This document shows positions 5,667 through 53,926 of a stretch of DNA of 64,000 nt, in pieces (the first letter of the stretch is position 1; each line of letters opens with the position of its first letter). The translations under genes were made by a program, and so were the position numbers. The stretch comes from Phormidesmis priestleyi ULC007. Its GTDB lineage: Bacteria; Cyanobacteriota; Cyanobacteriia; Leptolyngbyales; Leptolyngbyaceae. Under the pieces are notes generated by a model. That model was not told where the DNA came from, searched no databases, and saw nothing but the letters and a program-made list of their open reading frames with translations. Location: the NCBI RefSeq assembly GCF_001895925.1, contig NZ_MPPI01000001.1, forward strand, positions 252,099-316,098. Reading direction: 5' to 3'.

Positions 5667-5758
5667 TATATCAATCCCCAATGAATTGTGGGATGGACAT
5701 CTTGCCCGTACAGGCTGGAAGCCTGTCCCACTCTCACACCTGAAATAGGATTGCTATA
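5667..5758. repeat. Interspersed repeat family C, copy 2
   Basis: Inverted copy of the element at 105-194: it reads GAATTGTGGGATGGACATCT and ends GAAATAGGATTGCTATA. It lies between ndhK (leaving leftward) and the 3' end of the SWIM gene. Nothing else is seen in this 254-bp gap apart from a possible ndhK promoter. Confidence 0.75.
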
Positions 5759-11386: not shown

Positions 11387-11444
11387 CTTAGATCTTGCAC
11401 CTCTGGTATCTGGACGATGAGAACCTGTGGTTCATAGCATTCTC

Positions 11445-11750
11445 CCACCCTGAACTGAAGTTCGGGCTAACGGGGAAAGTCCGTTAACGTCAGTTCGACA
11501 GAAGTGATTGGCTACGATTGTGAATCCGGGAAGCCCCCTAAATCCCCCATTCTGAGGGACTTTGAACCGGAAATCTTGGCTCAAAGTCCCCCAATTTTGG
11601 GGGATTTAGGGGGCTGAAGCCGCTCAAAACGAAACGAAAAGCCTCGTCGAACTCACGTTCCGTTAAAACGGACTGAAGAACTAGCTGGGACTCGCTTTTA
11701 GTCCGTTTTAACGGACTTGAACTATTAGCCCGAACTTCAGTTCAGGGCGG
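11445..11750. repeat. Palindromic repeat family E, interrupted by a family A MITE
   Basis: The ends form a 26-bp near-perfect inverted repeat: the left starts CCACCCTGAACTGAAGTTCG and the right ends CGAACTTCAGTTCAGGGCGG. A second inner inverted repeat involves AAGTCCGTTAA and TTAACGGACTT. Without the inserted family A element and its duplicated target the unit would be about 127 bp. It fills most of the 413-bp gap between yjdF and clpB, where no gene is seen. Confidence 0.8.
11488..11658. mobile_element. MITE family A, copy 1
   Basis: This 171-bp element is flanked by the exact 8-bp duplication TCCGTTAA at 11480-11487 and 11659-11666. Its ends are inverted (CGTCAGTTCGAC against GTCGAACTCACGT). 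The interior contains the family core, CCCCCTAAATCCCCC followed by GGGGGATTTAGGGGG. It carries no coding sequence, so any movement must have depended on a transposase elsewhere. It is inserted into repeat E. Confidence 0.88.
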
Positions 11751-11799
11751 GTCAGCAGACTGACTCAGAATGCTGCAAGATTTCAGTTAAGCTTCACGT

Positions 11800-24543: not shown

Positions 24544-24548
24544 ATTAA

Positions 24549-24697
24549 CGTCAGTTCGATGAGTTCTTTCGCTTCGTTCTTCAGCGCTTCAGCCCCCTAA
24601 ATCCCCCAGAATTGAGGTTCAAAGTCCCCCAATTTTGGGGGATTTAGGGGGCAGCCTAGATTTGCAACCGTAGCGAAAAGCTTCATCGAACTGACGT
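24549..24697. mobile_element. MITE family A, copy 2
   Basis: This 149-bp element is flanked by the exact 8-bp duplication TAAATTAA at 24541-24548 and 24698-24705. Its ends are CGTCAGTTCGATG and CATCGAACTGACGT. The left duplication includes the TAA stop of the histidine kinase, so the protein end is unchanged. It carries the family core and no coding sequence. Confidence 0.9.
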
Positions 24698-33696: not shown

Positions 33697-33704
33697 TAAA
33701 TTGA

Positions 33705-33898
33705 TGTCAGTTCGACAGAAGCAGTTTGCTCCGAACAGCTTTGCTGAGCCGAAGGCAGTGTGAATTCGGGAAGCCCCCTAAATCCCCCAATTTTGGGGGA
33801 CTTCAAGATAAATTTTTCGGTTCAAAGTCCCCCAAAATGGGGGATTTAGGGGGCAAAAGCCGCTGACAACGAAGCGAAAAAAACCGTCGAACTGACGT
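33705..33898. mobile_element. MITE family A, copy 3
   Basis: This 194-bp element is flanked by the exact 8-bp duplication TAAATTGA at 33697-33704 and 33899-33906. Its ends are TGTCAGTTCGAC and GTCGAACTGACGT. Its left arm (TCAGTTCGACAGAAG, GGGAAGCCCCC) is closest to copy 1. No coding sequence. Confidence 0.9.
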
Positions 33899-47098: not shown

Positions 47099-47248
47099 GT
47101 ATAGAAAGGTGGAAGAATCTACATTAAGCCTCTATATAGTTACCACACAGCCAATTGTTTGTTTTAACAAATTTCTATAGAAACGCACTGAAATGGGACT
47201 CAACCGAGTTTGAGCGAGGTTAAGCTGACGACGCGATCGTGACACTAC

Positions 47249-47334
47249 AGCAATCTCATTGCAGTTGTAAGAGTGGGAAAGGCTTCCAGCCTGTACGGGC
47301 AAGATGCCCATCCCACAATTCACTTAGGATTGTT
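47249..47334. repeat. Interspersed repeat family C, copy 3
   Basis: Same orientation as copy 1, with GGCTTCCAGCCTGTACGGGC in the interior and inverted ends (AGCAATCTCA, TTAGGATTGTT). It ends ten bases from the tRNA-Pro gene. Confidence 0.75.
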
Positions 47335-50407: not shown

Positions 50408-52142
50408 GCGCTCGATCGCAGCCATCGTTAAGTCTGGACGATCGCGGCAAGTTGCCCATTTTCTGCCGATTTTGTGGATCTTGCTGCTGAGTTGGCTAGT
50501 TTTGTTTAACCACTTGGGCAGCACGGGGCTACTCGACGAAACCGAGCCTCTGTTTGCAGAAGCCGCTCGTCAAATGCAGGTGACGGGAGACTGGATCACG
50601 CCCTACTTCAATGGAGTGACTCGATTTGACAAACCTCCGTTGATCTATTGGTTGATGGCGATCGCTTATCACACGATCGGGGTCAACGAGTGGGCGGCGC
50701 GATTGCCCTCGGCCATTTCAGGAACGCTATTAATCGGGTTCTGCTTCTACACTTTGAGGTTTTTTGAGAATCAACTCAAACCGCACACCGTACATCTCAA
50801 AATCCTGCCCTTTCTGGGTTCTGCCATTTTTTCCCTAAATTTGCAAACGCTATTTTTTGGCCGATTAGGCTACTCAGATATGCTACTGAGTGTGTGCTTT
50901 GGTGGAGCATTGTTTAGCTTTTTTTTGGGGTATGCCCAACCTGAGAATCCTAAAGTTCAGACTCGTTTTTATCTGGCATTTTATGGATTGTTAGCGCTGG
51001 CAGTGTTGACCAAAGGGCCAGTGGGCGTAGTGTTGCCGGGGACGATCGTGCTGATCTTCTTAGTCTGCGTCGGCAAAGTCCGGGAGGTTTTACGAGAAAT
51101 CAAGCTCGTGCCAGGAATTGCGATTTTCTTGGCTCTCAGTGTGCCGTGGTATGTGCTGGCATATCTACGAAATGGAGAAAGTTTTGTTAATTCGTTTTTT
51201 GGCTACCATAATTTAGAGCGATTCACTCATGTAGTCAACCAACATCAAGGTGCCTGGTATTTTCACATTTTGATTGTGCTAGTCGGCTTCTTTCCGTGGT
51301 CGATTTATTTGCCTGCTGCGATCGTTCATAGCTTCCAACCCCGATCGTGGCGACAGTCACCACGATCGAGCCATTTAGGGTTATTTGCGCTGATCTGGTT
51401 TGCAGTTGTGCTGGGGTTTTTTACGATCGCGGCAACAAAATACATCACTTACACGCTGCCTTTAGTTCCGGCGGCGGCTATCCTCGTGGCACTGTGGTGG
51501 CACCATCAGATGCAGCAAGACGCACCAAAATGGGACTTAAAGCTGAGTGTGTATGTCAGCCTTGGGTTGTGCATCACGCTGGCGGCGGTGACGTTCTACA
51601 GTCCTCATTGGTTAAATGGCGACCCTTCGATGCCTCGTTTAGGGCTGCGAATGCAAGAAGCTGGACTGCCGCAAATCGGCTTTTTGATTTGGCTAGGTGG
51701 CGCGATCGCTGGCACTTTTTTGATTTTTGGGCGCAAGATGCGTTGGTTTTGGGCAGTCAATCTGGCGACTTATGCCGCGTTTATTCTGTTTTTCATCACG
51801 CCATTTGTGGGAGTTCTAGACACAGAACGTCAACTTCCCTTGAGAGAAGTGGCTCAGACGGTAATTCAGGTCAGACAGGCAAACGAACCGATCGTGATGG
51901 CAACCGATTCTTTTGAGAAGCCAAGTCTGGTTTTTTACACCCAACAGCCGATTACTTTTTTTAATCGCTCTGCAAAAATTAAACCTTATTTAGAACAAGT
52001 TCGTCAACAAAAGACACAGCGATCGATCCTCATGGTGACAACACTCAGCACGTTAAATGAGGCAAAAATTTCGCCCCAAGCTTATCAACTGCTGAAACAA
52101 ATTGGCGTTTATCGGGTCATTCGTTTTTTGGTGTCGAGCTAG
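50391..52142 (+). CDS. GT39-type membrane glycosyltransferase
   Basis: A 583-residue ArnT/PMT-like integral membrane enzyme with about 11 helices. The acidic catalytic loop is LLDETEPLFAEAARQM near 47, and FNGVTRFDKPPLIYWLMAI near 73 is the second family motif. It transfers a sugar from a polyprenyl-phosphate donor to a lipid or protein on the periplasmic side; donor and acceptor are unknown. ATG 50391 is preferred to GTG 50382. It overlaps the hydrolase gene and the second glycosyltransferase starts two bases after its stop, so the three form an operon. Confidence 0.9.
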   Translation: MKGRFERSIAAIVKSGRSRQVAHFLPILWILLLSWLVLFNHLGSTGLLDETEPLFAEAARQMQVTGDWITPYFNGVTRFDKPPLIYWLMAIAYHTIGVNEWAARLPSAISGTLLIGFCFYTLRFFENQLKPHTVHLKILPFLGSAIFSLNLQTLFFGRLGYSDMLLSVCFGGALFSFFLGYAQPENPKVQTRFYLAFYGLLALAVLTKGPVGVVLPGTIVLIFLVCVGKVREVLREIKLVPGIAIFLALSVPWYVLAYLRNGESFVNSFFGYHNLERFTHVVNQHQGAWYFHILIVLVGFFPWSIYLPAAIVHSFQPRSWRQSPRSSHLGLFALIWFAVVLGFFTIAATKYITYTLPLVPAAAILVALWWHHQMQQDAPKWDLKLSVYVSLGLCITLAAVTFYSPHWLNGDPSMPRLGLRMQEAGLPQIGFLIWLGGAIAGTFLIFGRKMRWFWAVNLATYAAFILFFITPFVGVLDTERQLPLREVAQTVIQVRQANEPIVMATDSFEKPSLVFYTQQPITFFNRSAKIKPYLEQVRQQKTQRSILMVTTLSTLNEAKISPQAYQLLKQIGVYRVIRFLVSS

Positions 52143-52144
52143 TG

Positions 52145-53926
52145 ATGCAATCAATTCAGAAAAAGTGGAGTCAAGCCCACCAAATTCACCAACTCCAGCG
52201 ATCGGTCGTTTGGATTCTTGGCATCGGCTTGGCGTTTAGAAGCATGGTTGCTTTCTGGCTGCCGCCTGGGTTTGACGAAGCTTACTACTATATCTATACG
52301 CTGCATCCTGCCTGGAGCTATTTTGACCATCCGCCGCTAGTCTCGCTGTCTACGGCGTTTGGGGTTTGGCTCACTGGCAACGTCTCGCCGTTTACGATTC
52401 GACTCGGCACACTCTTGCTGTTTACGGCAGCGTTGTATTTTCTATATCGGGCGACGACGCAATTATTTTCTCAACGGGCAGGAATTTTAACGCTGGCGAT
52501 CGCCTCGATCGCGCCCATTTTTCAGATCGGCTTTGGCATTTTGACGCTACCCGATGCCCCACTCATGGCGTTTTGGTCACTAACGCTTTGGGTTGCTGCC
52601 TGTGAATTTTTTCCGCAGGATGATGTACCTTATCGCCCTAGCTATCGAGTCGCGGTGATTGGCTTGCTGGTCGGTTTAGCCTGTCTGAGCAAATATCACG
52701 GCGTTCTTTTAGGCGTTGGGCTACTCGGATTTTGTCTCACCAGTGTGTCTCATCGAGCCGCCCTGCGATCGCCCTGGATTCTTCTCAGCGTTGCCCTGTT
52801 TACGATCGCAGTTTCCCCCGTGCTGTATTGGAACTGGCAGCACGACTGGGTTTCTTTTCTATTCCAAAGCAATCGCGGCATTCCTGCAAAGCGCTATAAC
52901 TTCGTGAATGTGATCAACACAGCGCTGATTCACAGTGCCTATCTGTTTCCGACTATCGGATTGCCGCTTTGGTGGGTCAGTCTCGCAGCTGGGATTCGAG
53001 CTGGACAATCCACAGTTCGATCGTGGTTTAACGTGAGTTCGATGCACCTTGGCGAACCTCCCCCCAACCCCCAATTCTGGGGGAGACAAATTTCAAAGTC
53101 CCCCAGAATTGGGGGATTTAGGGGGCGCGATGGACTGGTAACGAAGTCGTCGAATTCACATTGGTTTAAACCTAGAATCCGCACCGAGTCCGAACTGCGC
53201 GATCGTCAATGGCTGGTGGTTTGGGTTTCGGTGCCAGCTTTTCTCGTGTTTACGCTCATCGGTGGCTATCAGCAGATTTTGCCCACCTGGACAATGCCCG
53301 GATTTTTTGCTGCGACTCCTCTCCTCGGTCAACAAGCTGCCCTCTGGCAAGAACGGCACCCAAAACTCGTGAAGCGATGGTTAGTGGGATCGGCGATCGC
53401 GATCGTGATGCTCCTGCTCACAGCGCTCTCGCACATCACTCTAGGAACGCTCCAAAAACCGAGTCATTATGGAATATTTGGAGGTTTTTTAGCGCCTGAA
53501 AATGATGCCTCGATCAGCCTGGTAGATATCGTGCAACTGCGCCAAAATTTTGCCGCTTCTCCTCAGCTTTTAGCGGCTCTTAAAGACGCTGATTTTGTGT
53601 TTAGCAATCGCTTTCACATGGCAGGTCATGTGGGTATGGCATTAACACCTTTAGCGCCAATTCCGGTCACTTGTTTTGATAAAAAAGATGTGCGCGGCTT
53701 TGCGTTTTGGTCAACGGCTGAACAATGGGTCGGCAAAGATGGGCTATATCTAACCTCGAATAAGTTCCAGACTGAGGGAGATTCTGCGGCAGAATATGCG
53801 CCCTACTTTCAACAGTTTGAAAAACTGGGAGAAGTGCCGCTACGACGGGGTGGTGTCATCGTTGACAAATTTCACGTCTATCGCGGCAAAAATTTGCTAA
53901 AACCCTATCCTCGTCCTTCACTGTAA
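52145..53926 (+). CDS. GT39-type glycosyltransferase with in-frame MITE insertion
   Basis: A 593-residue membrane protein of the same family as its upstream neighbour. The catalytic region is FDEAYYYIYTLHPAWSYFDH near 42 and about 10 helices follow. Residues about 297-342 are out of character: polar, Pro/Gly/Ser-rich (EPPPNPQFWGRQISKSPRIG), and encoded exactly by a MITE plus its 8-bp duplication. Without them the chain would read SWFKPRIRTESELRDRQWLV and have 547 residues. The insert falls between helices, near a loop, and no stop or frameshift is introduced, so the protein may still work. ATG 52145 is used; GTG 52142 is one codon earlier. Confidence 0.88.
   Translation: MQSIQKKWSQAHQIHQLQRSVVWILGIGLAFRSMVAFWLPPGFDEAYYYIYTLHPAWSYFDHPPLVSLSTAFGVWLTGNVSPFTIRLGTLLLFTAALYFLYRATTQLFSQRAGILTLAIASIAPIFQIGFGILTLPDAPLMAFWSLTLWVAACEFFPQDDVPYRPSYRVAVIGLLVGLACLSKYHGVLLGVGLLGFCLTSVSHRAALRSPWILLSVALFTIAVSPVLYWNWQHDWVSFLFQSNRGIPAKRYNFVNVINTALIHSAYLFPTIGLPLWWVSLAAGIRAGQSTVRSWFNVSSMHLGEPPPNPQFWGRQISKSPRIGGFRGRDGLVTKSSNSHWFKPRIRTESELRDRQWLVVWVSVPAFLVFTLIGGYQQILPTWTMPGFFAATPLLGQQAALWQERHPKLVKRWLVGSAIAIVMLLLTALSHITLGTLQKPSHYGIFGGFLAPENDASISLVDIVQLRQNFAASPQLLAALKDADFVFSNRFHMAGHVGMALTPLAPIPVTCFDKKDVRGFAFWSTAEQWVGKDGLYLTSNKFQTEGDSAAEYAPYFQQFEKLGEVPLRRGGVIVDKFHVYRGKNLLKPYPRPSL
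53032..53161. mobile_element. MITE family A, copy 4, inside a coding sequence
   Basis: This 130-bp element is flanked by the exact 8-bp duplication TGGTTTAA at 53024-53031 and 53162-53169. Its ends are CGTGAGTTCGATG and CGTCGAATTCACAT. The core (CCCCCAGAATTGGGGGATTT, then AGGGGG) is present. Insertion plus duplication is 138 bp, exactly 46 codons, and the reading frame through it is open. Confidence 0.92.

Follow-up and report, generated by a model that had tools for sequence, protein, structure and literature searches.

The locus described here raises the question of how a short mobile element came to lie inside the coding sequence of a membrane glycosyltransferase gene without closing its reading frame, and whether the interrupted gene still yields a working protein. 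The gene lies in a 64,000-nucleotide stretch (the window) of the genome of Phormidesmis priestleyi ULC007, an axenic Antarctic cyanobacterium (PMC5313606), in an open reading frame at 52142–53926 that comprises 594 codons (593 from the ATG at 52145) and is stop-free through the element (Table 1). A profile search matched the product to PF13231 (Pfam PMT_2; E=2.7e-22), and its AlphaFold model (pTM 0.85) found its best PDB matches in ArnT (5ezm and 5f15, E about 1e-6), so that the label 'GT39', applied in a first-pass annotation of the window, is a loose one.

Table 1. Positions in the window of the interrupted gene, the inserted element and its parts, and further copies of the element family
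Feature	Position	Strand	Basis
Host gene, membrane GT-C glycosyltransferase (PMT_2, ArnT-like fold), 593 aa from ATG	52145..53926	+	ORF, PF13231, AlphaFold
MITE, 131 bp, terminal inverted repeats (TIRs) ACGTSARTTCGAYG	53031..53161	+	TIR pair and genome-wide copies
Left target-site duplication (TSD) TGGTTTA	53024..53030	+	7-bp TSD over 43 copies; single in sister
Right TSD TGGTTTA	53162..53168	+	Window sequence; 43-copy TSD definition
Left TIR ACGTGAGTTCGATG	53031..53044	+	Sequence
Right TIR ATGTGAATTCGACG	53148..53161	-	Sequence
Perfect 17-bp hairpin stem of the element (CCCCCAATTCTGGGGGA / TCCCCCAGAATTGGGGG)	53068..53115	+	Fold
46 added codons, NVSSMHLGEPPPNPQFWGRQISKSPRIGGFRGRDGLVTKSSNSHWF (residues 296-341)	53030..53167	+	Translation; mostly pLDDT <50 in model
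Full-length intergenic copy of the MITE family, TSD TCCGTTA	11487..11658
Full-length intergenic copy of the MITE family, TSD TAAATTA	24548..24697
Full-length intergenic copy of the MITE family, TSD TAAATTG	33704..33898

Re-reading the window letters returned the sequence previously described at 53024–53169. That description had divided the insert into a 130-bp element and an 8-bp duplication; its total of 138 bp is correct, but the parts measure 131 bp and 7 bp. Across 43 genomic copies, the left and right flanks match in 38–42 of them at each of seven positions, as opposed to 10–16 at the outside positions sampled; position 8 agrees in just 16 of 43, which rules out an 8-bp duplication. The apparent eighth base is a coincidence: the target is followed by an A, and the inverted repeat ACGTSARTTCGAYG also has A as its terminal base. 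This correction leaves the 138 bp, and hence the proposed in-frame gain of 46 codons, unaffected. Deleting these 138 bp rejoins STVRSWF directly to KPRIRTESELRDRQ, bearing out the claim that removal of the element restores continuity, and the residue numbers given earlier for the insert (297–342) are right if counted from the GTG, shifting by one from the ATG. The 594 codons contain no other lesions. As nucleic acid, the whole insert folds at -66.6 kcal/mol (z -6.25), and an Rfam search of the region matched no RNA family.

The element belongs to a large family. In the ULC007 genome (5,684,389 bp in 118 contigs) the TIR pattern CGTSARTTCGAYG occurs at 423 sites with up to one mismatch, against 55 for a reversed control pattern. 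Within the sampled loci, 79 distinct paired copies of 116–195 bp were found dispersed through the genome, roughly 40% of the family as judged by the 423 sites. With terminal inverted repeats, a fixed 7-bp TSD, a short length, many dispersed copies and no transposase gene, the element is a MITE. The sampled loci contained no longer element combining matching ends with a transposase ORF; a 507-bp pair considered as an autonomous partner was unconvincing (three TIR mismatches; TSD 6/7). Two of the 79 copies are intragenic, where lying inside an ORF means at least 45 codons on either side and at least 150 codons in all, and both keep the frame: the glycosyltransferase copy and one in menE. Copies elsewhere are intergenic, often at gene 3' ends; in a subsample of 50, 22 lie between convergent genes and 4 between divergent ones. 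Beside seven copies (among loci L054–L113), the neighbouring ORF stops right where the element borders it, with an apparent one-base overlap between stop and element. At 11444–11751 in the window, a copy is nested in another inverted-repeat element with 44-nt arms, and a different dispersed repeat family of about 85–100 bp (GGCTTCCAGCCTGTACGGGCAAGATGCCCATCCCACAA) occurs at 91–189, 5674–5758 and 47232–47330.

The state before insertion is preserved in a sister strain of the same species, P. priestleyi BC1401, the closest relative compared, whose glycosyltransferase orthologue is 83% identical. Here the site reads GATCGTGGTTTAACCCTGGAAGCCACACCGAG, with the target unduplicated, against GATCGTGGTTTA, then the element plus TGGTTTA, then AACCTAGAATCCGCACCGAG in the window. 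The MITE segment was found in none of the 29 aligned orthologues, so the expectation that orthologues would lack exactly these residues was borne out. Taken together, the empty site and the orthologues indicate that the insertion most likely arose on the ULC007 branch after the split from BC1401. The event had been called datable; the comparison yields an upper bound, the ULC007/BC1401 split at a synonymous divergence (dS) of about 0.68, rather than an actual date. The exact TSD, the exact empty site, the dozens of element copies and the single-copy state of the adjoining gene segment (G000; a control strict for the window's own genome only) together amount to more than chance. The same observations bear on whether a short-read assembly wrongly joined a repeat into the gene, as might be feared of a draft genome built from Illumina reads and merged from two assemblers (PMC5313606). 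Such a misjoin would hardly produce an exact 7-bp TSD and an exact empty site in BC1401 with the frame intact on both sides; moreover, the 131-bp copy is unique in the genome (next best match 85%), reads from the second run, at 250 bp, could bridge it, and menE provides an independent second case. We therefore give an artefact almost no credence.

Turning to that second case, another copy of the 131-bp subtype lies on contig 36 at 52033–52160 (G000; L003, L054), inside a gene identified as o-succinylbenzoate-CoA ligase, menE (NCBIfam NF005662, above cut-off), and the sole good MenE match found in the ULC007 genome. Its orientation and reading frame are those of the glycosyltransferase copy (NVSSTHSDEPPPNPQVWGSRSSKSPKLGGFRGQDGLVTKPSNLRF), its TSD is TTTTTTA/TTTTCTA (6/7 match), and the sister comparison showed the MITE to be absent from BC1401 menE. 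This copy also has a perfect 17-bp hairpin stem of different sequence (CCCCCAAGTTTGGGGGA versus CCCCCAATTCTGGGGGA); stems that differ and yet are both perfect are as expected of elements apparently shaped as nucleic acid, not protein. The peptides encoded by the two copies are clearly alike. At 0.52, their frame-0 dN/dS lies only slightly under 1, with base pairing in the stem as a confounder, and gives no convincing sign of protein-level selection on the inserted peptide. Four further long open frames with this peptide, found elsewhere in the same taxonomic order (G031 C305, G031 C351, G059 C275 and G007 C123) were not accepted as clear inserts because they are stop-to-stop frames adjoining or overlapping other genes.

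Frame-keeping is a rare property of this family: 19 of 474 combinations of element, orientation and phase (4%) preserve the frame, so the chance that two of two genic copies would do so is about 0.002. The host genes themselves look constrained at the level of sequence. Between ULC007 and BC1401, over the whole branch, dN/dS on either side of the insert is 0.14 and 0.15 in the glycosyltransferase gene and 0.16 and 0.15 in menE, and relative-rate tests with several outgroups detected no excess of changes on the ULC007 branch. Since these measures span all the time since the sister split, loss of function right after a very recent insertion would still be compatible with them. Conceivably, then, the glycosyltransferase gene is a fresh pseudogene, inactive and open in frame by luck: the insertion may be recent, no difference has yet arisen between its TSD copies, and so stable a hairpin may lower translation. 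Against this stand the absence of further lesions, the low dN/dS on both sides of the insert without rate acceleration, the presence of the same kind of insert in the only good menE, and the occupation of the same loop by other repeats in other genera. We consider inactivation improbable and infer, from the intact frame and the constrained gene, that the glycosyltransferase insert is translated.

The preserved frame in both genic copies might alternatively reflect a 131-bp subtype specialised for genes, that is, a protein-compatible selfish element of the kind proposed for Rickettsia RPE-1. Its length plus TSD and the loss of a stop-forming TAAAT arm would give such compatibility; both 131-bp copies are genic and share orientation and frame, two of the six frames are open in each, and their peptides resemble one another. 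However, only two such copies are known, their 128- and 123-bp relatives are intergenic, the peptide dN/dS noted above lends little weight, and a survivor effect accounts for the pattern equally well. Specialisation is thus in our view unlikely, though less so than inactivation of the host gene.

The position of the inserts offers a simpler account of their survival. In the glycosyltransferase model, residues 311–345 almost all have pLDDT <50 and lie between helices 272–295 and 348–372, in agreement with the earlier placement of the insert between membrane helices; in the MenE model, residues 106–158 form low-confidence coil, and the remainder of both models is mostly confidently folded. Both inserts are thus predicted to fall in disordered loops. 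The glycosyltransferase loop spans 12–58 aa in the 29 aligned orthologues versus 76 in ULC007, and the menE loop likewise varies in length between genera. Long glycosyltransferase loops in two other genomes (G020 and G009) are occupied by different dispersed repeats, each genome giving about 40 matches; a third genome (G006) has the same menE loop filled by a palindromic repeat with 68 matches, and in a fourth (G010) the menE loop holds a repeat with 54 matches that shares the CCCCCTAAATCCCCC core with the ULC007 family but is read in another frame, a likeness assessed over the core. Occupation of these loops by other repeats elsewhere indicates that mobile repeats land in both loops time and again and are tolerated there. 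In other genera, GT-C orthologues L010, L023, L032 and L028 carry unrelated repeats, dispersed or tandem (for example GACGCGGAGACACGGAGAC and CAATCTGCAATCTGC units), in the loop that the MITE entered, and different repeats occur in the MenE loop that immediately precedes the nucleotide-binding motif (L146, L152 and L153; G006, G010 and G005). The stable mRNA hairpin and the variable loop lengths could also be read as signs that the added loop is adaptive, for instance that the hairpin slows translation between helices or that the loop binds a partner. The unrelated repeats in the same loops fit tolerance better than a specific function, and the insert is predicted to be disordered; we regard an adaptive role as very improbable.

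The reading we favour, and hold with high confidence, is MITE transposition followed by purifying selection that spared frame-keeping insertions in flexible linkers, the insertions being neutral or nearly so. A non-autonomous MITE of the 7-bp-TSD family would have jumped into the glycosyltransferase gene of the ULC007 lineage after the BC1401 split, presumably mobilised in trans by the transposase of an autonomous element with the same ends. The reading frame would survive because element and TSD add up to 138 bp and one frame through the element is stop-free. Since the loop hit by the element is flexible, varies in length and joins two membrane helices, folding of the protein is most likely preserved despite the added stretch of 46 disordered, basic residues; its activity would probably be retained as well, leaving the insertion neutral or nearly so. 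Purifying selection would have purged the frame-breaking majority of genic insertions and left these two. The sample behind this case covers about 40% of the family and includes just two genic copies. The same process would account for the menE insertion and, with other repeats, may explain why some other genera have long forms of these loops. A broader proposal, which we put forward tentatively and consider somewhat less probable than not, is that in cyanobacteria the flexible linkers of ordinary enzymes act as recurrent catchments, in which different mobile repeats are time and again converted into protein sequence in different lineages, and that the present MITE lineage includes a gene-compatible subtype. 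This would be a cyanobacterial counterpart of the Rickettsia system and a general source of loop-length variation. The different repeats in the same GT-C and MenE loops make this a testable general explanation for part of that variation in cyanobacteria. For annotators they are also a warning that lineage-specific Pro/Gly-rich stretches in such loops may be repeats.

Compared with known systems, the earlier interpretation of non-coding DNA becoming protein sequence is supported, yet the event is less unusual than it had appeared, because palindromic elements inserted in frame have been recorded both in Rickettsia and in further bacteria (PMC10969869, PMC3733652). Rickettsia palindromic elements (RPEs) are about 150 bp long and inserted in frame, with 44 integrations in R. 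conorii, and RPE-1 in particular resembles the present element as a non-autonomous palindromic repeat sitting within the reading frame of metabolic genes, where the protein tolerates it (PMC10969869); the in-frame genic location known from RPEs is found here in two genes. The host differs, as presumably does the sequence, nearly half of RPEs are genic compared with 2 of 79 MITE copies here, and the present element is a clear MITE with TIRs and TSD, likened to RPEs by mode of insertion alone. REPs of the GTAG/CGTC type are likewise palindromic, lie mostly at gene 3' ends and between convergent genes, and are listed inside ORFs of several bacteria, where they encode 20–82 residues (PMC3733652). 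REPs measure 20–40 bp, however, and are linked to tyrosine transposases, whereas our element, at 131 bp and with inverted ends ACGTSARTTCGAYG and a 7-bp TSD, is not a REP. Among cyanobacterial MITEs (Nezha, those of Anabaena PCC 7120 and the mcy-inactivating element), some contain ORFs or interrupt genes, the likeness being by description only; the mcy MITE differs in that it inactivates its gene (PMC10969869). A 2024 review of prokaryotic MITEs calls a process similar to that in Rickettsia 'conceivable' in other prokaryotes (PMC10969869). The ULC007 glycosyltransferase is a clean new example of this already known principle: owing to the empty site, the exact target duplication and the same-species comparator, it provides a clean before-and-after case outside Rickettsia of non-coding mobile DNA joining an open reading frame, and the menE insertion adds an independent second case from the same genome.
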